A stretch of 40,281 bases of DNA, taken from Anaerolineales bacterium. GTDB taxonomy: Bacteria > Chloroflexota > Anaerolineae > Anaerolineales > RBG-16-64-43. Shown one piece after another: positions 20,601 through 35,536 of the stretch. The stretch is from the NCBI GenBank assembly GCA_016928575.1, contig JAFGKK010000081.1, forward strand, positions 1 to 40,281, read 5' to 3'. The position numbers and the translations under genes are program-made. A model generated the notes under the pieces. It was not told the DNA's origin and searched no databases. It worked only from the letters and a program-made list of their open reading frames with translations. Each line of letters begins with the position of its first letter. The first letter of the stretch is position 1.

Positions 20601-21027
20601 TTCCGCAGGCCGTCCCCGGATCCGCCCTGCTCGTCCGCGGGAAGATGCAGGCATGACAAAGGTCGGCTCTGAAACGGCAAAACGAAAAAACCGCCGGGTA
20701 TCGGCGACGCGGAAAGCGGCGCGGCGGATTCCTGCGCGCCGACCAAGCCGGCCGAAACGCAGGCCCGACGACACCCTCCCAGCCGGTGCTCCGGCGGCGT
20801 CCCGGCCGGCTGCGGCGATAGCGGAACCGGCCCGCGCCGGCTTTCACCCCTTCGGAAAAATCCTTAACCGCATCTGGAAAAATGTGGGCAGCTGTTTTAG
20901 AGCCCCATCCCGGGAAAAAGGGAGCGGGACGAGCAATCCATTGGGTTTGCAGAAGGCGGAATTGGCATCGACCCCTCCGCCCGCGCGCCAAAGCAGACTA
21001 CAAATTTTATTTCCATACGCTGGAAAA
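20601..21027. other. Gap between dehydratase and exported TPR protein
   Basis: This 427-bp stretch stays open in the frame of the next gene from ATG 20653. The predicted 125 extra residues are unusually rich in Arg, Lys, Pro and Ala without any domain, and they would place the clear signal peptide of the TPR protein in the middle of a chain. I therefore treat it as non-coding or leader DNA. No tRNA, strong hairpin or consensus promoter was seen. Confidence 0.4.
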
Positions 21028-22401
21028 ATGAAATTCCCGGCGATCGGCCTATGCGTTCTCCTCTGGCTGATCCCGGCCGCCACACCGAACGGCGCCGTTC
21101 CCTATCGACCGTCCTGCCCCGCAGATCCGCGTCCGGCGGCCGGCTGGGGCGTGCTGTGGTTCCCGCAGGACGACGCGTTCGCGCTGTCCGCCGCCCGGGA
21201 ACTGCTCGGGAGGCGGGATTTTCCGGCGGCGGTCTGTTTCTTCCGGCTGGCAGAGGATACCCATCAGCGGGATCCGCATTTTCTATACGAGCTTGGCGAA
21301 GCCTATTGGGGATCCGGCGATCTGGAATCGGCGCTGGAGCAATGGGAAAAAGCGCTGGCGCTCGCTCCGGCGTGGGACGAGTTATCCGTCCGACTGTGGA
21401 AGGGGTACTTCCAGGGCGAATTCTGGGATCGGGCGGAGCCGGCGATCTCGCGCCGCCTGGCCCGGCATGCGGACGACGTTGAGGCCAAATTCGCTTTGGC
21501 GCTGGTCCGCGCCGCGCGTAATCCGGGAAGCGCGCTGGACCTGCTCGCCGCATTGCGGACGGCCCCCAAGCCGGTTTCGACCAACGCGCGGGCCTTGGAG
21601 GCGGTGATCCGGGCGGCGATCGCGAGAAGGGTCCCCGAATACATCTTCGCCGCAACCGGGGAAGAACTGCTCCGGCAAGGCCAGGCCGCGCTCGCCAAAG
21701 AAGCTCTGCGCCGGGCGATCGAGAGAAATCCGAATTACGGGGAAGCGTACGCGCTGTTGGGGCTGGCGCAGGAGGCCACCGGCGGGGATCCGGAAGAATC
21801 TTACCGGAGGGGCGTCGCCCTGGCGCCGAACTCCGCCCTGGCCTGCCTGGCGTACGGCGCTTGGCTGAGGCGGCAGGGGGAATCCACTCTGGCCCGCTGG
21901 TGGCTGATCCAAGCTTGGATCGCGCGGCCGGGGGATTGGATCATCGCGGCGGAGCTTGCCCAATTGGATTTCGACCGCGGGAATTTGAACGACGCCGAGC
22001 AATGGCTTCTGCAGTCGGTGGCGGCCTACCCGGCCGAACCCGAGGCCTGGATCGCGCTGGCGGCGTTCTTCATCGAAAACGATTACCGGGTGGAAGCGAA
22101 CGGAATCCCGGCGGCCCGCCAGGCGGTGATCCTGGCCCCGGACAACGACCGGGCGCTGGACCTGCTCGGCTTGGGATGGTACAAGCTGGCCGATTTTTCC
22201 ACGGCTGAGCGGATGTTCCTGCGCGCCTTGGAGAAGAATCCGGATTCCGCCAAGGTGCATCTGCACCTGGGAATGTGCTATTGGGAGCAGGGACGCGCGG
22301 CCGAAGCGAGAAGCGAATGGGAAACCGCACTCCAACTGGATCCCCGCGGCGCCGTCGGCCGGCAGGCCGAAGAATTCCTCTCCAGGTCCCGCCCGGAATA
22401 G
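21028..22401 (+). CDS. Exported TPR-repeat protein
   Basis: 457 residues from ATG 21028. The first residues MKFPAIGLCVLLWLIPAATP form a signal peptide, followed by a short linker with two cysteine-flanking prolines (YRPSCPADP). From about residue 45 to the end the chain is a run of TPR-like helical hairpins: LLGRRDFPAAVCFFRLAED, FLYELGEAYWGSGDLESALEQ, then KVHLHLGMCYWEQGRAAEA near the C-terminus. It should act outside the cytoplasm as a scaffold. Because it follows the glycan genes, a role in polymer export or assembly is possible (inference). The in-frame extension to 20653 would bury the signal peptide and is not favoured. Confidence 0.7.
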   Translation: MKFPAIGLCVLLWLIPAATPNGAVPYRPSCPADPRPAAGWGVLWFPQDDAFALSAARELLGRRDFPAAVCFFRLAEDTHQRDPHFLYELGEAYWGSGDLESALEQWEKALALAPAWDELSVRLWKGYFQGEFWDRAEPAISRRLARHADDVEAKFALALVRAARNPGSALDLLAALRTAPKPVSTNARALEAVIRAAIARRVPEYIFAATGEELLRQGQAALAKEALRRAIERNPNYGEAYALLGLAQEATGGDPEESYRRGVALAPNSALACLAYGAWLRRQGESTLARWWLIQAWIARPGDWIIAAELAQLDFDRGNLNDAEQWLLQSVAAYPAEPEAWIALAAFFIENDYRVEANGIPAARQAVILAPDNDRALDLLGLGWYKLADFSTAERMFLRALEKNPDSAKVHLHLGMCYWEQGRAAEARSEWETALQLDPRGAVGRQAEEFLSRSRPE

Positions 22402-24089: not shown

Positions 24090-27116
<3,027 letters not shown>

Positions 27117-27190: not shown

Positions 27191-28174
27191 ATGGACGCCA
27201 TACGCTGGGGCATCTTGGGCACGGGCGGGATCGCAAGAAAATTCGCGGACGGCTTGGCGTTGCTTCCGGATGCGCGCCTGGCCGCGGTGGGATCGCGCAC
27301 GCGCGGATCGGCGGAAGCATTCGGCAAGCAGTGGAGGATCCCGCATCGGCACGGCAGCTACGCGGCGCTGATGGCTGACCCTGACGTGGAGGTGATCTAC
27401 ATCGCCACGCCGCACACCCTGCACCGCGAAAACGCGCTCGGCTGCCTTTCCGCCGGAAAGGCCGTGCTGTGCGAGAAGCCGTTCACGATCAACGCCCGCC
27501 AGGCGGAGGAAGTGATCGCCCAGGCGAGGAGCAGGAAACTCTTCCTCATGGAAGCCATGTGGACCCGCTTCTTCCCGGTTGTCGCGAAGGTCCGCAGCCT
27601 GCTGGCCGAAGGGGCGATCGGGGAGGTCCGTCAGGTTCAAGCCGATTTCGGCGCCCAGCCGAAGTTCGACCCGAAAAGCCGGCTGTTTGATCCGGCCCTC
27701 GGCGGCGGCGCTTTGCTGGACCTGGGGGTGTATCCAGTCTCGCTGGCGTCGATGGTGTTCGGCGAGGCTCCCCGGCGGATCACCTCCGCGGCGCGCCTCG
27801 GCTCCACCGGGGTGGACGAGCATGCCGCCGCGATTTTGGAATACTCCGGCGGCCGGATGGCGGTGGTGTCGTGCGCGATGACGTTCGTCTCGCCCCAGGA
27901 AGCGCACATCCTCGGGACGAACGGGCGGATCCGGATCCGCCGCCCGTGGTGGTTCCCCGCCGCGGTCACCCTTTCACGGACGGGAAAGGATGACGAGGAG
28001 ATCACCATGCCCTACCTCGGAAACGGCTATGCCCACGAGGCGGCGGAGGTGATGGAGTGCCTGCGGGGCGGAAAAATGGAAAGCACGGTGATGCCGCTGG
28101 ACGAGACGCTTCGCATCATGCACGCCCTCGACTCCATCCGCGCGCCATGGGGTTTGAAATACCCGGGGGATTGA
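27191..28174 (+). CDS. Gfo/Idh/MocA family oxidoreductase (dihydrodiol-dehydrogenase-like)
   Basis: 327 residues from ATG 27191, with consensus AGGAGG at 27181-27186. A longer frame to 27113 would read through the palindrome and overlap glyS, so it is rejected. The N-terminal Rossmann loop is WGILGTGGIARKFADGL (6-22). CEKPFTINARQAEEVIAQAR carries the family EKP motif, and MEAMWTRFFP and LGGGALLDLGVYPVSLASM are characteristic of the trans-1,2-dihydrobenzene-1,2-diol dehydrogenase / 1,5-anhydrofructose reductase subgroup. It uses NAD(P) on a sugar or diol substrate that cannot be specified. It may be transcribed together with glyS, separated only by palindrome copy 2. Confidence 0.9.
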   Translation: MDAIRWGILGTGGIARKFADGLALLPDARLAAVGSRTRGSAEAFGKQWRIPHRHGSYAALMADPDVEVIYIATPHTLHRENALGCLSAGKAVLCEKPFTINARQAEEVIAQARSRKLFLMEAMWTRFFPVVAKVRSLLAEGAIGEVRQVQADFGAQPKFDPKSRLFDPALGGGALLDLGVYPVSLASMVFGEAPRRITSAARLGSTGVDEHAAAILEYSGGRMAVVSCAMTFVSPQEAHILGTNGRIRIRRPWWFPAAVTLSRTGKDDEEITMPYLGNGYAHEAAEVMECLRGGKMESTVMPLDETLRIMHALDSIRAPWGLKYPGD

Positions 28175-28230
28175 GCGTTTTTCCGATGAGAGGGTGAAGC
28201 TGGCGACGTCACCCGGCGCGGAAACTCGGA

Positions 28231-28298
28231 AATCCACGGAGGCCATAGAGGTGCACGGATTCTTTTCCGTCTGTGATCCTCCGCGGCCTCCGTGGATT
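28231..28298. repeat. Inverted repeat with 14-bp perfect arms
   Basis: Arms 28231-28244 and 28285-28298 are perfect reverse complements around a 40-nt centre. The sequence CCACGGAGGCC/GGCCTCCGTGG resembles the degenerate (A)CAGAGG-type repeats scattered in intergenic DNA of many bacteria. Whether it is a mobile remnant or a structural RNA element is unclear. Confidence 0.55.
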
Positions 28299-28418
28299 CT
28301 CGGCGCCGACGGGACCGATTGGTACGAATCGGTGATGGGATGTTGAAAGGTTCCCGTCTCCTTTGCTTCGGCGGCGGGGATGCGGTCCCGCCGCACCCGG
28401 CGGAAAAATTCATCCGAT

Positions 28419-28446
28419 AAAAAACCGAACCTTCGGCCTTTTTTCG
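28419..28446 (+). terminator. Possible terminator hairpin with A-run and T-run
   Basis: AAAAAA-CCGA-ACCT-TCGG-CC-TTTTTT: a short GC stem with flanking A and T tracts and a CC bulge. The loop is 4 nt. It could end transcripts from the oxidoreductase, or from the opposite strand. The stem is weak, so the call is tentative. Confidence 0.35.
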
Positions 28447-28449
28447 TTA

Positions 28450-28458
28450 TGCTATACT
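28450..28458 (+). promoter_or_regulatory. Extended -10 promoter of the TPR-cdaA block
   Basis: TGC-TATACT, a near-consensus -10 with the TGn extension, 26 nt upstream of ATG 28484. No -35 match, because the upstream bases form the A/T-run hairpin. Confidence 0.5.
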
Positions 28459-28483
28459 CTGTGCGGAAGCCGTCGAGGGAAGC

Positions 28484-30823
28484 ATGCCGGGTCATCGGGA
28501 AGTATACGAACAGGCTTTGAGGCAGGGCAACAGCGCGGCCTGGGACCAAAAATGGGATCAGGCGATCACCGCCTACCAGCGCGCCCTCACGGAATTCCCC
28601 GGCGATCCGGTGGCGATGGACCATCTCGGCCTGGCCTTCATGCAAAGCGGCCAGCTGGATCAGGCCCAAGCGGTGTATCAGGAAGCCGTCCGGGCCGATC
28701 CGCAGAATCCGATTCCCCACGAAAAAATTGCGGAAATCCTGGAACGCAACGGGAAGGTCGTGGAATCGGTTCAGTTGCGCCTGAGCGCGGCCGAACTTTT
28801 TCTTGCCAAGCGGGAAGCCGACAAGGCGATCGACAATTGGCTGGCGGCCGCCCGGCTGGTTCCTGAAAACATGGTCGCCCGCTCCCGCCTGGCATTGGCA
28901 TTCGAGCGGACGGGACAGCACAAACAGGCGGTGACGGAATATCTGGCTCTGGCGGCGATCATGCAGCGCGCGCGCCAGCCAGAGAAGGCGATGCAGGCGA
29001 TCGAGCAGGGAATCCGGATCATTCCCGATTCGCCGGAGCTCGCCCGCGCCCGATCGGCGCTGAAATCCGGCAAGGTGTTGGCCATCCCGCCGCCCTACAA
29101 GCCGGGGATGACCGGGATGCTGGTACCACAGACAGCGAGCCTTCCGCCGGAACCGCCCCCCCCTTCGCCCCGGCAGACCGCGAGCGTCGAACCGCGCTCG
29201 ACCAGCCCCCAAGACGCGGCGCAGAAGAAGGCGATGGCCGTCCTGGCGGAAAAACTTTTCGAGGCGGACCGGGACACCTTCGACCAGCGGCGCACCTCCA
29301 TCGACCAATTCACCCGCGGGGAGGAAAAGGCGGTTTCGGCGCACGCCGACCAGAACCGCTACCTGGCCCTGGCCATCGACGCCTATTCCCGCCAACAGCA
29401 ACAGGAAGCGATGGAGTATTTCGACCGCGCCTTCCGCGTCGGCTTCGAGCATCCGGCGGCTTCCTTTCTCTTCGGCACCCTGCAACTGGCGGAGGAACAG
29501 TTGGAACAGGGGATGCTTTCCCTGCAGAAGGCCGTCGAGCATCCGGACCTCTCGATGGGCGCGCATTACATCCTCGGCCGCGCTTGCCGGGATGCGGGCC
29601 AGGCGTACCGGTCGGCGATCCACTTCCTCTCCGCCCTGCGCCTGGCGGATATGAACACCGTCCCGGATGATCAGCGGGACGCTCTGCAGCGCACCTACGA
29701 GGCCTTCCTCGAGGTCCCGGAATCCGAACAGGAACCGGACCAATGGAACCAGACGGGCGAGCGGATTGAAGCCCTGTTGACCTCTCCGGATTGGGAAAGC
29801 CGCCTGCGGCTGGCCCGCGCCCAATTGGACGCGCAATCGGATTCCCCCGGAACGGCTCCGTTGGCGGAAATGCTTTCGCTCGGCAAACCGCAGGCGCTGA
29901 TCGAAGCCATGGGCTACCTGGACCTTGCGGTCCGGCGCGGCTTGTGGCGGACGGCGATGGAGCAGGCAATGCTGGCCCTCGACCACGGCCCGACCTACCT
30001 GCCCCTGCATCTGCGGATCACGGAAATCCAGCTGAAGGAAGATAAGCAGACGGAGGCGCTCGCCAAACTGGGGCTGATCGCGCGGACGTACCGGATCCGC
30101 GGCGAAACCCTCCAAGCCGCCAAAATTTACGAGCGCATTTTGCAGATCAACCCGATGGACGTGGGTTCGCGGACCGAATTGATCAACCTGCTCGTCCAGC
30201 AAGGGGATTTGCGCAGCGCACTGAGTTTTTACCTTGATTTGGCGGACGTCTACACGCAGCTGGCGGACTTGGAAGGTGCACGGCAGACATACGAATCCGC
30301 GCTGATGCTCGCCATACGCAACAACGCCGACAAGTCCTGGCAGATCCAATTGCTCTACCGGCTGGGCGATCTGTACATGCAGCGGCTGGATTACCGGGCC
30401 GCCCTGCAGACCTTCCAGCGCCTGCAACAGCTCGATCCGACCGACGAGAAAGCCGGGACCCAGCTGGTGGATTTGATGATCCGCCTGGGAAAGATCGGCG
30501 ACGCGCAGAATCTGATCAACAACGTCTCCCGCGAATGGACCCGCCTCGGGCGCCAGGATCAGGTCCTCGAGTGGCTCGAGGAGTTGGTGCGCGTGCGCCC
30601 CGAAGAGGCGCTCTTGCGCCGGAAACTGGCGGATACGTATCAACAGCGGGGACGGATCGCCGAGGCGATCGGGCAGTTGGACGCGCTGGGGGACGCGCAG
30701 GTTGAGGCAGGCAACATCCCCGACGCGATCCTGACGGTGCGGGCGATCCTCGCCCTGCGCCCGCCCAATGCGGAAGGCTACCAGGAACTGCTGCAAAAGC
30801 TTGAATCCGGCTCCGTAACCTGA
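28484..30823 (+). CDS. Large cytoplasmic TPR-repeat protein upstream of cdaA
   Basis: 779 residues, GAGG before the ATG. It has no signal peptide or membrane segment. Residues 1-195 form TPR units (WDQKWDQAITAYQRALTEFP, then AMDHLGLAFMQSGQLDQAQA). A proline-rich linker (about 200-245) with PPYKPGMTGMLVPQ and PPEPPPPSP follows. The remaining 530 residues are a second long TPR solenoid, for example LYRLGDLYMQRLDYRAALQT and LADTYQQRGRIAEAIGQLDA. It acts as a scaffold; partner unknown. Its stop is only 9 nt before cdaA, so the two are co-transcribed. A link to c-di-AMP signalling is an inference from this position. Confidence 0.8.
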   Translation: MPGHREVYEQALRQGNSAAWDQKWDQAITAYQRALTEFPGDPVAMDHLGLAFMQSGQLDQAQAVYQEAVRADPQNPIPHEKIAEILERNGKVVESVQLRLSAAELFLAKREADKAIDNWLAAARLVPENMVARSRLALAFERTGQHKQAVTEYLALAAIMQRARQPEKAMQAIEQGIRIIPDSPELARARSALKSGKVLAIPPPYKPGMTGMLVPQTASLPPEPPPPSPRQTASVEPRSTSPQDAAQKKAMAVLAEKLFEADRDTFDQRRTSIDQFTRGEEKAVSAHADQNRYLALAIDAYSRQQQQEAMEYFDRAFRVGFEHPAASFLFGTLQLAEEQLEQGMLSLQKAVEHPDLSMGAHYILGRACRDAGQAYRSAIHFLSALRLADMNTVPDDQRDALQRTYEAFLEVPESEQEPDQWNQTGERIEALLTSPDWESRLRLARAQLDAQSDSPGTAPLAEMLSLGKPQALIEAMGYLDLAVRRGLWRTAMEQAMLALDHGPTYLPLHLRITEIQLKEDKQTEALAKLGLIARTYRIRGETLQAAKIYERILQINPMDVGSRTELINLLVQQGDLRSALSFYLDLADVYTQLADLEGARQTYESALMLAIRNNADKSWQIQLLYRLGDLYMQRLDYRAALQTFQRLQQLDPTDEKAGTQLVDLMIRLGKIGDAQNLINNVSREWTRLGRQDQVLEWLEELVRVRPEEALLRRKLADTYQQRGRIAEAIGQLDALGDAQVEAGNIPDAILTVRAILALRPPNAEGYQELLQKLESGSVT

Positions 30824-30832
30824 TCGAATCCG

Positions 30833-31732
30833 ATGACCAACCTCGTCCAGAACGTCCTCTTCCTGTTCCAGCGCCTGCATTGGTACGACGTGCTGGACAT
30901 CGGCCTGGTGGCCCTGCTGTTCTTCATCCTGCTGACCCAATTCCGGGGCACGCAGGCCGGCACGGTTCTGCGCGGGATTGCGATGATGATCGTCGGCGTG
31001 GCGCTGTTGACCAGCGTCGCCCAGCTCCCGGCGGTATCCTGGATTTTGGAAACCATTCTCCCGGCCCTGCTGATCGTGATCCCGGTCGTGTTTGCTCCGG
31101 AGATCCGCCGGACCCTCGAGCGGGTGGGGCGGGCGGATTTTCTCCGCCGCGCGTCGCCGATGACCGAGGTGCCGCCTTACATTCAAGCGGTGGTGGCCGC
31201 CGCCAAGCGGCTTTCCGAACGGCGGCACGGCGCACTGATCGTGATCGAACGCGACGTCGGGTTGGACGATTTCTCCTGCACCGGGTTGCGGCTGGATGCG
31301 GACGTGTCCGCTGAATTGATGATGCAGATCTTCTACCCCAACACGCCGCTGCACGACGGCGCCGTGATCCTGCGGCGCGAGCGGATCCTCGCCGCCGGAT
31401 GCGTCGTGCCGCTCTCCTCCGGCAACGTCTTGGCTTCCTCCGACCGGCGGATGGGCTTGCGGCACCGGGCGGCCCTGGGAATCAGCGAGGTGAGCGACGC
31501 CGTCGCGGTGGTGGTTTCGGAGGAGACCGGCATCCTCTCGGTGGCGCATAACGGGCGGATGATCCGCAGGCTGGATCCGCAGCGCCTGCAGAACATCCTG
31601 CTGGCGTTCACGCGAAATGCGGCGGGCTCCACGATCTTTCCCTGGACCTTGTTCCGCCGCAAAAGCGCTTCGCCGGCCGTCCGGCCCACGGAACCGGAAG
31701 GCGCGGAAAGCGAGGAAAGGCATCCCGAATGA
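30833..31732 (+). CDS. cdaA: Diadenylate cyclase CdaA (c-di-AMP synthase)
   Basis: 299 residues. Three N-terminal membrane helices (about 20-36, 45-62, 68-87) are followed by a DisA_N catalytic domain. The two signature motifs are intact: DGA in NTPLHDGAVILRRER (170-184) and RHR in RRMGLRHRAALGISE (205-219). The enzyme condenses two ATP molecules to cyclic di-AMP at the inner membrane, a messenger controlling potassium, osmolyte and cell-wall homeostasis. A charged C-terminal tail (about 265-299) is longer than in the Bacillus protein. It is followed through an ATGA overlap by its usual partner gene cdaR/ybbR; glmM, often third in Firmicutes, is not here. Confidence 0.95.
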   Translation: MTNLVQNVLFLFQRLHWYDVLDIGLVALLFFILLTQFRGTQAGTVLRGIAMMIVGVALLTSVAQLPAVSWILETILPALLIVIPVVFAPEIRRTLERVGRADFLRRASPMTEVPPYIQAVVAAAKRLSERRHGALIVIERDVGLDDFSCTGLRLDADVSAELMMQIFYPNTPLHDGAVILRRERILAAGCVVPLSSGNVLASSDRRMGLRHRAALGISEVSDAVAVVVSEETGILSVAHNGRMIRRLDPQRLQNILLAFTRNAAGSTIFPWTLFRRKSASPAVRPTEPEGAESEERHPE

Positions 31733-32964
31733 AAAAGCGGCTGGCTGCCTGGGGTGCGAACGCATTTTCTTTCCTGCTGGCGCTGATCCTCGCGCTGGCG
31801 GTCTGGGCGAACGCCGTCAGCACCGCCGATCCCAACGAGACCCGCACGCTCACCGCTCCATTGGCGGTGGAGATCGTCGGGTTGCAGCCGGGATTGGTCG
31901 CCCAGGGTTACGAAGCCGCCGTGGTGCAGGTGACCATCCAAGCCCCGCGTTCGATTTGGGATCAACTCGTTCCGGAAAACTTACACGCCCGGGTGGATTT
32001 GAGCGGAAAGGCCGAGGGGCAGTACGTAGTTCCGGTGGAGATCCAGACGGACGTCGATCCGGTACGGGTGGAACGGGTGGAACCCAATTCGGTGGAGATC
32101 GTCATCGACCGCCTGGCCGCGCGAACCCTCTCGGTTCGCGTCCAATTGGCGGGAAACTTGGCGCCGGGTTTCCAGGCCGGAACCCCCGCCCTAAGCCCGG
32201 TGTCGGTGCAGGTCTCCGGGCCGGAATCGCTGGTCGATCGGATCGCCGAGGTCGTCGCCACGGTCGACATGGAAGGGGTCCGCAATCCGACGGACCAAAG
32301 CGTGGAGCTTGTCCCGCTCGATACGGAAGGAAACGTGGTCGCGGGCGTGTCGATCGAGCCGCCGGCGGTGTCGGTTTCGGTCCCCGTCCAACAACTCGGG
32401 GGATACCGCGATCTGGTGGTGAAGGTTCCCCTGGTCGGAACGGTGAAGAGCGGATACCGGCTGACCGGGCTGACGATCGATCCGCAGGTGGTCACGCTGT
32501 ATTCCGACGATCCGGACGTGATCCGGAACCTTCCCGGATATGTGGAGACGGAGCCGCTCGACATTGACGGGGCATCCGCCGACATCGTCCGCTCGCTTTC
32601 CCTGGTCCTACCCGCCGGCGTGCAGGTGGTCGGCAACCCGCGGATCATCGTCCAGGTCAACATCTCGGCGATCGAAGACAGCCTCACCGTATCGCGGCCG
32701 ATACGCTTCCAGGGGTTGGAGCCGGGTCTGGCGGTCACCCTCTCGCCGGAATCGGTGGACGTCATTCTTTCGGGTCCGGCCTCCGTCATCTGGTCCCTTA
32801 GGCCGGCCGACATCGACGTCTATTTGGACCTGACCGGCATGGATCCGGGCCGGTACGCCATGACCCCCGAAGTGAACATTCCGGACGAACTGCAATTGGT
32901 CACCCTTTCTCCGGAGCAGGTGGAAGTGGTGATCGCGGAAGCGACTCCGACCCCGTTCCCGTAG
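31729..32964 (+). CDS. cdaR: YbbR-domain protein (CdaR), regulator of CdaA
   Basis: 411 residues from the ATGA overlap with cdaA. One N-terminal membrane anchor (FSFLLALILALAVWANAVS, 13-31) is followed by four extracytoplasmic YbbR domains of about 80-90 residues. Each has the pattern of short beta strands with PxxVxVxGP-like segments: ALSPVSVQVSGPESLVDRI, TIDPQVVTLYSDDPDVI, SPESVDVILSGPASVI. In Bacillus and relatives the YbbR/CdaR protein binds CdaA in the membrane and modulates its activity. The short tail after the last domain is Pro/Thr-rich. Confidence 0.93.
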   Translation: MKKRLAAWGANAFSFLLALILALAVWANAVSTADPNETRTLTAPLAVEIVGLQPGLVAQGYEAAVVQVTIQAPRSIWDQLVPENLHARVDLSGKAEGQYVVPVEIQTDVDPVRVERVEPNSVEIVIDRLAARTLSVRVQLAGNLAPGFQAGTPALSPVSVQVSGPESLVDRIAEVVATVDMEGVRNPTDQSVELVPLDTEGNVVAGVSIEPPAVSVSVPVQQLGGYRDLVVKVPLVGTVKSGYRLTGLTIDPQVVTLYSDDPDVIRNLPGYVETEPLDIDGASADIVRSLSLVLPAGVQVVGNPRIIVQVNISAIEDSLTVSRPIRFQGLEPGLAVTLSPESVDVILSGPASVIWSLRPADIDVYLDLTGMDPGRYAMTPEVNIPDELQLVTLSPEQVEVVIAEATPTPFP

Positions 32965-32985
32965 TCCGCGAAAGCGAAACCTTTG

Positions 32986-34353
32986 ATGCGAAAGCCGATT
33001 GTCGCCCTGGTGGGCCGTCCGAACGTCGGAAAATCCACCCTGTTCAACCGCTTGGTTGGGCGGCGGGTGGCCGTGGTCGATGACACGCCCGGCACGACCC
33101 GCGACCGGCTGGTGGCGGAAGGCGAGTGGCAGGGGCGGACGTTTGACGTGGTCGACACCGGGGGGATCGATCCGGATTTTTTCCGCCACGGCAAGCCGCT
33201 TTCCGTAGGATCGGCGGATTACATCGGTCCGATCCGGTTCCAGGCGGAGATGGCGGTCCGCGACGCCGATCTGGTGCTGTTTCTGGTGGACGCCGAGGCC
33301 GGGGTGACGTCGGCCGACGGGGAAGTCGCCGACATTTTGCGCAAGCGGCGGGGCTCGCCAAAGGGCGGGAACCGCCCGCCGATCCTCCTGGTGGCGAATA
33401 AATGCGACAATCCGGCGCGACGGGAGCAGGCGGCTGAGTTTTATGAGCTTGGGATGGGGGACCCGCACCCGGTATCTGCGGTCCACGGAAGCGGGGTCGG
33501 GGACCTGCTGGATGCGATGACGGCGCTCCTGCCGGACGCGGCGGCCGTCGAGGAGGGGGAGGACCGGATCCGGATCGCCATCGTCGGCAAACCGAACGTC
33601 GGAAAAAGCAGCCTGCTCAACCGCCTGCTCGGCGAGGAGCGGGTGATCGTCAGCCCGATCCCCGGCACGACCCGCGACGCCGTCGACACCCGCTTGGTGT
33701 TCCAAGGCACGCCCGTCACCCTGATCGACACCGCAGGCATCCGCCGCCGCGGGAAGATCGAACCGGGGGTGGAGAAATTCAGCGTCCTGCGCGCACTGCG
33801 GGCTCTGGAGCGGGCGGACGTGGCCCTGTTGGTGCTGGACGCCGAGCAGGGCATAGCGTTGCAGGATGCGCACATTGCCGGTTTTATCGCCGAGGCCCGG
33901 CGCAGCGCCGTGGTGGTGGTGAATAAATGGGACGCGGTCGAAAAGGATTCGCAATCGCAGGATCTGTATCGGCGCCGGATCCGCGAGGAGCTGGATTTTC
34001 TGGACTACGTGCCGGTGCTGTTTGTCTCCGCCAAGACCGGGCAACGAACGGGGGAAATCCTGCCGGCGGCGCTGCGGGTTCAAGAAGAGCGCCTGGTGAG
34101 GATCCCGACATCGGAGTTGAACCGGATTCTGCGCGAAGCCCAGGAGAAACACGCGCCGCCGGCCCGCTCGGGCCGCCAACTCAAGCTGTATTACGGATCC
34201 CAGGTTAAAGCCGATCCGCCCACGTTTCTAATTCATGTAAACGATCCGGGTCTGGTGCATTTTTCCTACCGGCGGTTTCTTGAAAACCAAATCCGCGCCC
34301 GATATCCCTTCCTGGGCACTCCGTTGGTGTTATCCTTCCGCAAAAGATCGTAG
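32986..34353 (+). CDS. der: Ribosome-assembly GTPase Der (EngA)
   Basis: 455 residues from ATG 32986; a TTG one codon earlier is also in frame. Two tandem GTPase domains: the first with GRPNVGKST (10-18), PGTTRD (35-40), DTGG (57-60) and NKCD (138-141); the second with GKPNVGKSS (201-209), PGTTRD (226-231), DTAG (248-251) and NKWD (313-316). A C-terminal KH-like domain follows (LKLYYGSQVKADPPTFLIHV, then NDPGLVHFSYRRFLENQIR). Der binds the 50S ribosomal subunit and is needed for its maturation. All nucleotide-binding motifs are intact, so both domains should hydrolyse GTP. It follows cdaR by 21 nt. Confidence 0.96.
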   Translation: MRKPIVALVGRPNVGKSTLFNRLVGRRVAVVDDTPGTTRDRLVAEGEWQGRTFDVVDTGGIDPDFFRHGKPLSVGSADYIGPIRFQAEMAVRDADLVLFLVDAEAGVTSADGEVADILRKRRGSPKGGNRPPILLVANKCDNPARREQAAEFYELGMGDPHPVSAVHGSGVGDLLDAMTALLPDAAAVEEGEDRIRIAIVGKPNVGKSSLLNRLLGEERVIVSPIPGTTRDAVDTRLVFQGTPVTLIDTAGIRRRGKIEPGVEKFSVLRALRALERADVALLVLDAEQGIALQDAHIAGFIAEARRSAVVVVNKWDAVEKDSQSQDLYRRRIREELDFLDYVPVLFVSAKTGQRTGEILPAALRVQEERLVRIPTSELNRILREAQEKHAPPARSGRQLKLYYGSQVKADPPTFLIHVNDPGLVHFSYRRFLENQIRARYPFLGTPLVLSFRKRS

Positions 34354-34365
34354 AATAAGTTAAAA

Positions 34366-34440
34366 ACCCCAGAGATACGATAGAATTTCCCTGCAAGCGG
34401 ATCGTTTTCCGGTTCTTTGTGGTTTTCATACCTTTGACTT
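34366..34440. repeat. Degenerate CAGAG-type repeat remnant
   Basis: Between der and lepB the bases CCCCAGAGATACGATAGAA and, inverted, TTCTTTGTGGTTTTCATACC resemble the repeats near 762-820 and 39969-40044. It is degenerate and not a gene. Nothing else was seen in the 34354-34475 gap. Confidence 0.35.
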
Positions 34441-34499
34441 TTCACGGAGTTGTGACGGGATGCCATCCCCCTTCCTTTACTTAGCGCGCATGGACGACG

Positions 34500-34505
34500 T
34501 ATAAT
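34500..34505 (+). promoter_or_regulatory. Promoter element before lepB
   Basis: TATAAT (34500-34505) with a TTTACT (34476-34481) 18 bp upstream as a possible weak -35. It lies 46 nt before the favoured start of signal peptidase I. Confidence 0.55.
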
Positions 34506-34550
34506 CTGCCCGCGTCCGGGATGGAAAATCCGCGGCGGATTCGAGGCCTG

Positions 34551-35225
34551 ATGCAAGATCAATCGTATCTCCCCGAGGCGGTGGAAACGCCCAAGAACAA
34601 ATCGCGCCTGCGGGCGATCGCGCTGGAAACGCTGCAAACGCTCGCGCTGGCCGGAGTGTTCTACCTGGCCATCAGCCTGGCCACCGCTCGGGTGGTGGTC
34701 GAAGGACCGAGCATGCGACCGACCCTGCTCAGCGGGGAATGGATCATCGTCAGCCGATTGGCCTATGCCTGGGCCCCCCCTCAACGCGGGGACGTGATCG
34801 TCTTCCTGCCGCCGACCAACGCCCAGACCGACGATTTGATCAAGCGGGTGATCGGTCTGCCGGGCGAGACCCTGGAGATCCGCGGGGGATCGGTGTGGAT
34901 CAACGGCCAGGAGTTGGAGGAAACGTACATCCTGGGAAGCACTTCACCGGACAACCGCTGGCAGCTGGGCCCGGAAGAATTATTCGTCATGGGCGACAAC
35001 CGCGGAATATCGCTGGATTCACGGTCCTTCGGGCCGGTATCCATGAAGGAAGTGGTAGGCAAGGCGTGGGTGATCTATTGGCCTCCCCCGGAATGGGGCC
35101 TGCTGGAATGGCGCAACGGAGCCTCCGATCCGCAGAATTCCGCTTTCCGGTACAATAGGCTTCCCTCCCTTTGGGGATTGGGGGCCGCTTCACGATCATC
35201 CGGCGCAAACGCCGGCCGGAGTTGA
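34551..35225 (+). CDS. lepB: Signal peptidase I
   Basis: 224 residues from ATG 34551, which has a GAGG just upstream; an in-frame ATG at 34521 would add ten residues. One N-terminal membrane helix (about 28-45) precedes the peptidase S26 core. The catalytic serine is in VVEGPSMRPTLLSGEW (Ser54) and the general-base lysine in DDLIKRVIGLPGE (Lys98). Box E is LFVMGDNRGISLDSRSFGP (145-163). It removes signal peptides from exported proteins at the outer face of the membrane. The C-terminal 35 residues are a variable Ser/Ala/Arg-rich extension. The next gene starts 2 nt after the stop, but with its own TACAAT box inside lepB. Confidence 0.95.
   Translation: MQDQSYLPEAVETPKNKSRLRAIALETLQTLALAGVFYLAISLATARVVVEGPSMRPTLLSGEWIIVSRLAYAWAPPQRGDVIVFLPPTNAQTDDLIKRVIGLPGETLEIRGGSVWINGQELEETYILGSTSPDNRWQLGPEELFVMGDNRGISLDSRSFGPVSMKEVVGKAWVIYWPPPEWGLLEWRNGASDPQNSAFRYNRLPSLWGLGAASRSSGANAGRS
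35151..35156 (+). promoter_or_regulatory. -10 element (TACAAT) inside the 3' end of lepB
   Basis: CGG-TACAAT, the same form as at 17735 and 35642, 72 nt before the zinc-finger gene start at 35228. It lies within coding sequence, so it may be fortuitous. Confidence 0.35.
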
Positions 35226-35227
35226 GC

Positions 35228-35536
35228 ATGACGGACGAAAAAGATCAGGACAACTGGAAAGAGAATTGTCCGGAATGCCAGATGGGGACGCTGCGCAGCG
35301 GCAGCGTGCCTTATTATGCGAAGTTGGAAGAGACGCTGGTGGTCGTGCCGGATTTTCCGGCTTGGATCTGCGACATCTGCCGCCACTGCGAATACGACGA
35401 GAGCGCCCTGGACGCCCTGCGGATCATCCTCGGCCCCTCAGCGCACATTCCCGCCCTGCCCACTCCCCGAAAGCGGCTCCCGGCGGAAGATCCTTTTTCC
35501 GGTCTGCGCAACGACACCCGCAAAGGGTCGAAATAA
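35228..35536 (+). CDS. YgiT-type zinc-finger protein (102 aa)
   Basis: 102 residues from ATG 35228; the longer frame from 35171 would overlap lepB. Four cysteines form a C-x2-C-x30-C-x2-C zinc site (Cys14, Cys17, Cys48, Cys51) in KENCPECQMGTL and PAWICDICRHCEYD, with VVPDFPAWICDIC as the beta strand typical of YgiT-type zinc ribbons. These occur in MqsA-type antitoxins or as stand-alone proteins. No toxin gene or helix-turn-helix part is present here, so a toxin-antitoxin role is not supported. The C-terminal 35 residues are basic and probably disordered. Confidence 0.7.
   Translation: MTDEKDQDNWKENCPECQMGTLRSGSVPYYAKLEETLVVVPDFPAWICDICRHCEYDESALDALRIILGPSAHIPALPTPRKRLPAEDPFSGLRNDTRKGSK

Follow-up and report, generated by a model that had tools for sequence, protein, structure and literature searches.

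A gene for a tetratricopeptide repeat (TPR) protein of 779 residues stands directly upstream of cdaA, the gene for the membrane diadenylate cyclase, in a 40,281-nucleotide stretch of DNA from an Anaerolineales bacterium of the phylum Chloroflexota (contig JAFGKK010000081.1 of assembly GCA_016928575.1, forward strand; hereafter the window). Computation established the gene, the predicted architecture of its product and the widespread adjacency of the TPR gene and cdaA, and gene order among relatives indicates that the pairing is old and widespread in Chloroflexota. We put at about 40% the probability that the TPR protein is a cytosolic scaffold for the cyclase CdaA and its membrane partner CdaR, possibly in the place of the enzyme GlmM; binding to the complex is inferred from gene context.

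Predicted architecture of the TPR protein

The TPR gene occupies positions 28484-30823 of the + strand (open reading frame list, Pfam, alignment and AlphaFold2) and starts with an ATG codon a short distance downstream of a Shine-Dalgarno-like GAGGG (28475-28479, + strand, by sequence reading). Its product matched 23 Pfam families, almost without exception TPR families or kindred helical-repeat families (E 4e-30 for TPR_2); the TPR families that exceeded their gathering scores, together with two all-helical solenoids, place it in the superfamily defined by tandem 34-residue helix-turn-helix repeats. AlphaFold2, supplied with 24 orthologues, returned a model with a mean predicted local distance difference test score (pLDDT) of 87.8 and a predicted template modelling score of 0.51, in which two confident helical solenoids flank a low-confidence linker. 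Solenoid 1 comprises residues 5-194 (28496-29065, + strand; helices and pLDDT) and the helical, TPR-like solenoid 2 comprises residues 281-775 (29324-30808, + strand). The proline-rich linker, residues 195-241 (29066-29206, + strand), is devoid of secondary structure, and pLDDT values in the linker region fall below 50 at residues 208-238 and 262-282. No membrane segment was predicted by hydropathy anywhere in the 779 residues, and the protein is predicted to be soluble because its 19-residue hydropathy maximum is 1.2, against 2.3 for both CdaA and CdaR. The soluble double TPR solenoid with a proline-rich hinge that had been described in the sequence-only reading is thus confirmed.

Pfam and NCBIfam recognise the protein as a generic TPR protein only. 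Every NCBIfam match fell under its curated cut-off (MamA, 87 versus 200 bits), and the known TPR subfamilies were rejected as its identity on that ground. The N-terminal sequence G-x-S-A-A-W-x3-W is invariant across the 24 aligned orthologues, with S17-A18-A19-W20 and W24 located in solenoid 1; with this motif and a gene context of its own, the protein is, as judged from the alignments, a separate family. It has the tandem TPR superhelix in common with the generic bacterial TPR scaffolds represented by NCBIfam models (MamA, PrsT, PilW, BatC), and is set apart from them by its sub-cut-off scores, this motif and this context. Within the window's genome nothing else matches the protein over its length, the second-best match being E 9e-5 over 138 residues; among named sequences the closest TPR gene is that of Anaerolineales bacterium isolate Zod_Metabat.1134, at 89% identity. 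The best Foldseek matches of the model were the eukaryotic scaffolds Ctr9, TTC21B/IFT139, Ski3, Naa15 and subunits of the anaphase-promoting complex/cyclosome, which are likewise long, partner-holding TPR superhelices; with query-normalised template modelling scores of at most 0.17 and identities of 10-15% among the 50 rows shown, the modelled likeness is generic repeat similarity only. A second TPR protein of 582 residues is encoded at 20653-22401 of the window, ~6 kb 5' of the TPR-cdaA unit, and a similar upstream gene is present in two relatives, G001 and G003 (G, L and f numbers are our handles for genomes, loci and families).

The TPR-cdaA-cdaR-der unit

The TPR gene ends 9 nucleotides 5' of cdaA (gap 30824-30832), as the sequence-only reading had stated. 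The cdaA gene (30833-31732, + strand, 299 residues) was identified by its DAC domain (E 1e-40; 138 bits, cut-off 27), by the TIGR00159 model (222 bits, cut-off 188.8) and, on sequence reading, by the DGA and RHR motifs, present as HDGA and LRHR. Hydrophobic windows within residues 15-93 provide the N-terminal transmembrane region of CdaA, for which the CdaA_N model scored 22.2 bits, slightly under its cut-off of 23.8. The window's genome, a draft of 137 contigs, contains this single DAC match. Directly 3' and overlapping cdaA by 4 nucleotides lies cdaR (YbbR; 31729-32964, + strand), whose 411-residue product has one N-terminal hydrophobic stretch by hydropathy and four YbbR stretches by Pfam (E 5.5e-34). 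The gene for the GTPase Der (EngA; 32983-34353, + strand) is the next of the conserved order, occupying the position 3' of cdaR in many drawn loci, and lepB follows it.

The gene 5' of the TPR gene ends at 28174, and the interval contains a terminator-like hairpin that includes a T run (28415-28446, + strand; RNA fold of -8.3 kcal/mol, z -2.8, with 4 of 200 shuffles equally good). Extended -10 promoter elements have the consensus form TGnTATAAT. Such an element, TGCTATACT, lies at 28450-28458 on the + strand within an 11-base block, TATGCTATACT, that is shared without change by the window, G001 and G003, all of one family, while its surroundings diverge. A consensus scan near the TPR gene did not find a canonical sigma-70 site on the + strand, and no Rfam RNA reached the gathering threshold in 28100-35300. 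The 9-nucleotide gap leaves no room for a promoter 5' of cdaA; given this gap, the hairpin and the invariant TGCTATACT, the TPR gene is probably the first gene of its transcription unit in the window's genome, and TPR-cdaA-cdaR-der appears to be under one extended -10 promoter. The earlier proposal that the TPR gene shares the cdaA promoter is therefore better supported than before, as a sequence inference. Elsewhere in the window, glyQ and glyS are fused as one gene for a glycyl-tRNA synthetase of 1008 residues (24090-27116).

Conservation of the pairing in Chloroflexota

In a draw of 297 genomes across the class, a TPR profile built from the 24 orthologues matched 160 (E 1e-30), and DAC matches were present in 289. 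Among the 98 genomes for which both places were listed, the TPR gene lies directly 5' of the DAC gene on the same strand in 76; the remaining 22 have it on another contig or strand (21 genomes) or far off on the same strand (1 genome). This count leaves out 52 of 150 listed TPR places that had no listed DAC place; ten of the 160 TPR-bearing genomes had no TPR place listed, and ten of the DAC places came from the sample of the window's order described below. Two of the 21 deserve correction: G098 is actually adjacent, with a 78-residue cdaA fragment 3' of the TPR gene at a contig end, and in G193 contig ends interrupt the locus. The conservation of the TPR-cdaA-cdaR order, which the earlier reading had put forward as a check, is thus borne out by the dominance of adjacency in the class draw and by further cases beyond the class (G443, G485, G471, G403, G354, G367, G401 and G413). 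Among the loci drawn, argF-TPR-cdaA-cdaR-der is the most frequent order, and it is found beyond the class as well; the run in G443 is argF-TPR-cdaA-cdaR, with a TPR protein called at 1,095 residues. The names polA, coaE, argF and rho are sequence readings here and below, with argF confirmed by Pfam in one locus.

A second operon type occurs in two families of other classes, f82 and f93, where cdaA stands in the order rplM-rpsI-TPR-cdaA-cdaR (rplM and rpsI by sequence reading) in 4 of 6 and 3 of 3 loci, respectively; a fifth f82 locus has an 86-residue piece that scores as TPR. The cdaA-adjacent TPR genes of these families encode ~310-410 residues with Pfam TPR matches. In four f82 genomes the adjacent TPR protein is the genome-wide best match to the family, aligning from the family N-terminus at E 2e-10 to 3e-4. 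The one rpsI-type locus that was scanned, in G475, continues with a gene of phosphoglucomutase type and one that is GlmS-like, with SIS and amidotransferase domains.

When the adjacent or separate state of the gene is mapped onto a tree with 86 TPR proteins, 8 changes are required, compared with a mean of 26.3 after shuffling, and none of 500 shuffles was as low. The tree is a quick LG+G4 tree in which L238 and L240 drew long-branch warnings; it leaves out TPR proteins shorter than 600 residues and also L214, where the gene caller missed the TPR gene, though that locus was counted as adjacent in the class draw. The codon-based gene caller missed cdaA in L083, L237 and L233, which were set to adjacent from DAC coordinates or the locus view; a TPR-CdaA fusion (L091) was set by hand to adjacent and G249, in which coaE lies between the TPR gene and cdaA, to separate, while G038 and G021, whose TPR genes run into contig ends, carry no state. 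A six-frame recheck of the stretches fetched for the 33 separate rows found cdaA in G249 only.

Partner of CdaA or passenger in its operon

Several lines of evidence weigh against the scaffold reading: gene arrangements in the window's own order, the occurrence of either gene without the other, rates of change and certain individual loci. The order sample comprised 61 genomes, the window's own and 60 relatives, of which 51 contain a TPR match at E ~1e-30 or better, so the gene is not a chance open reading frame; contig ends truncate some of these matches, and three, in family f9, cover only ~450-460 residues at 24-27% identity. Judged from places and neighbours, the TPR gene immediately precedes cdaA in 16 of the 51 genomes and stands elsewhere in 24, with 11 undecided. 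In this order polA is a more frequent companion of the TPR gene than cdaA is. The sequence-only reading would have been undermined by a TPR gene found elsewhere in most relatives; this is the case inside the order and not across the class, where 76 of 98 are adjacent. Where the genes are separate, the genome often has one locus with polA-TPR and a second with coaE-cdaA-cdaR-der. On the tree, the separate rows of the order fall into a single derived clade of 25 (24 separate, 1 undecided; Shimodaira-Hasegawa-like approximate likelihood ratio test support of 100), and we read the split as one late event, with the window's family just outside the separate clade having kept the old state. A single run of polA, a 374-residue gene, TPR, coaE, cdaA, cdaR and der in G249 looks like an intermediate between the joined and split states, and polA-TPR-cdaA-cdaR runs are present in families f4 and f10. 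Often just 5' of polA in Anaerolineales loci is a further family of ~430-590 residues (for example L262:17680-18969, - strand); in the single member that was scanned, a Y1 (IS200-like) transposase domain lies at the C-terminus, and the N-terminus, by sequence reading, resembles a response-regulator receiver; the family may be domesticated.

The presence of the TPR protein and that of CdaA are not tied to each other in either direction. In a draw of 161 genomes from the phylum, TPR matches (E 1e-20) were found in 54 and DAC matches (E 1e-15) in 120. No DAC match was found in 17 of the 54 TPR-bearing genomes (ten f79, four f71, three f97; rounded sizes 3.1-7.4 Mb), so the TPR protein does not occur only where CdaA occurs, as a CdaA regulator should. 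YbbR was likewise absent from all seven of the TPR-bearing, DAC-less genomes tested, with both controls positive, and the 17 genomes have apparently lost c-di-AMP synthesis, to judge from their gene content. The TPR proteins of the two f79 genomes looked at keep the family start M-P-G-N-R..F, and on the tree the four DAC-less rows, two from f79 and one each from f71 and f97, cluster with f95, a family that has TPR-cdaA. Conversely, 83 of the 120 DAC-bearing phylum genomes gave no TPR match at E 1e-20, nor did at least 129 of the 289 in the class draw at E 1e-30. Sixteen drawn loci (5 and 11 from two draws) have argF-cdaA with no TPR gene in between, and rpsI-cdaA without a TPR gene was seen in 4 of 4 loci of family f70. 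G184 has argF-TPR-der without cdaA in between, its sole DAC match being a CdaA-YbbR fusion elsewhere.

Pairwise distances were compared across the 35 genomes in which all four proteins were called (22 adjacent, 13 separate). With Der held constant, the TPR-CdaA distance correlation was 0.52, a weak signal similar to the 0.53 of CdaA-CdaR. The TPR-Der partial correlation was 0.28 overall and 0.46 in the adjacent set, and in the separate set of 13 genomes TPR-CdaA (0.34) fell below TPR-Der (0.43). The test is compatible with a CdaA-partner model, weakly so, and is not specific to it.

These results bear most directly on the leading alternative, which we hold to be nearly equal in standing to a partnership with CdaA: that the TPR protein acts as a general scaffold in the cytosol, with an envelope, division or ribosome-related task, and that the cluster order polA, coaE, argF, TPR, cdaA, cdaR, der, lepB is kept for co-expression only. 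A passenger of this kind is favoured by the retention of the TPR protein in genomes without DAC and YbbR matches and by its rate correlation with Der; argF and der, unrelated enzymes, are likewise steady neighbours, and the TPR gene still adjoins polA in many genomes after its split from cdaA. What argues for the CdaA partnership instead is that TPR-cdaA is kept while the flanks change among argF, polA, gfo and rpsI contexts, and that the f82 pairing lies outside the argF-der cluster with a TPR protein that is its genome's best family match. In f93 the adjacent TPR protein is not the genome's best family match; the pairing there may reflect independent recruitment or be too diverged to tell.

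Two further results bear on the partnership. In G044 the TPR protein and CdaA share one open frame of 1031 residues (L091:3936-7031); a comparison by eye with G056 (L094), a close relative, shows that it corresponds to an in-frame loss of ~200 bases, taking away approximately the last 50 TPR residues and the spacer. We take this fusion as weak support for the pairing because it comes from one draft genome, in which an assembly error is possible. GlmM, which the TPR protein might replace, scored above the curated cut-off (TIGR01455) in 1 of 41 genomes and slightly under it in three f3 genomes. No match over the TIGR01455 cut-off was found in the window's genome, only distant phosphomutases at 159 bits. 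These GlmM counts favour the partnership; against it, near-GlmM proteins occur in two f3 genomes with argF-TPR-cdaA (G006, G019) and in one with TPR-cdaA (G032). As a separate observation, natural CdaA-CdaR fusions of 709 and 687 residues, each with the DAC domain at the N-terminus and YbbR repeats at the C-terminus, are encoded at L264:4181-6310 and L273:3659-5722 (both - strand), and L263 and L265 encode proteins of 698 and 706 residues alike in length and CdaA match; gene fusion of this kind is a direct sign of the CdaA-CdaR partnership.

A role as a c-di-AMP effector, in which the TPR protein would bind the nucleotide and act downstream, is very unlikely: apparent co-transcription with the sole cyclase gene found in the genome speaks for it, against which Pfam and NCBIfam give repeat families without a known nucleotide-binding domain. 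Because the TPR protein persists in genomes without a DAC match, a pure effector or CdaA-only regulator role fits poorly. Least credible is DNA polymerase I or another polA-locus product as the main partner. In its favour, of the 80 closest named loci 65 have polA directly 5' of the TPR gene, and only 9 have cdaA directly 3'. Against it, these loci were the top matches from a single scan and belong mostly to polA-type loci of the order; among the class loci drawn outside the order, G280 alone has polA directly 5', so linkage to polA is largely absent there, and on the tree no polA rows occur beyond the order and G280.

A candidate third component of the CdaA-CdaR module

The published cdaA operon is cdaA-cdaR-glmM, according to passages of three papers (PMC8573169, PMC8316131, PMC12974146), which to that extent bear out the earlier statement that known cdaA operons have cdaR and often glmM and that a TPR partner is not standard. 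A passage of PMC8573169 states that CdaA activity needs higher oligomers, whose formation in Firmicutes is blocked by GlmM, a cytosolic enzyme. A literature search of open-licence papers (titles and abstract openings among the matches listed) found no report of a TPR gene beside cdaA, and within the available text of PMC8316131 the word 'tetratricopeptide' appears only inside a reference title. The window's unit shares with the Firmicutes operon a membrane CdaA, an extracytoplasmic CdaR encoded directly 3' of it and an adjacent gene for a cytosolic protein. It differs in that the adjacent gene encodes a TPR scaffold and lies 5', rather than encoding the GlmM enzyme 3'; glmM is not in the operon, and der follows cdaR. 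The TPR-bearing operon is a variant of the known CdaA-CdaR module and not a new kind of system.

Under the scaffold reading, the TPR protein would have long belonged to the cdaA operon of Chloroflexota as a soluble scaffold whose two superhelical arms are connected by a flexible linker. It would bind the cytosolic face of CdaA and, through CdaA, the CdaA-CdaR membrane complex, at the cytosolic position that GlmM holds in Firmicutes. One arm could hold the cyclase and the other a cytosolic client, so that the position or oligomeric state of CdaA, and hence c-di-AMP output, would be coupled to that client. Further clients are very probable because the scaffold outlives CdaA in some lineages. A more specific version, which we consider rather unlikely, would make the TPR protein a dedicated third CdaA-CdaR subunit in Chloroflexota that replaces GlmM as the controller of oligomerisation and relays client information, the cyclase-less lineages having kept the scaffold for its client.

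For Leptospira, a discussion passage of PMC12974146 treats it as an unsolved question how CdaA is controlled when the operon lacks glmM; the TPR-cdaA pairing, in another phylum, offers a concrete candidate partner for such a setting. The arrangement argF-TPR-cdaA-cdaR-der would be an old operon whose linkage history can be read from relatives, and the widespread pairing suggests a previously undescribed partner of c-di-AMP signalling.

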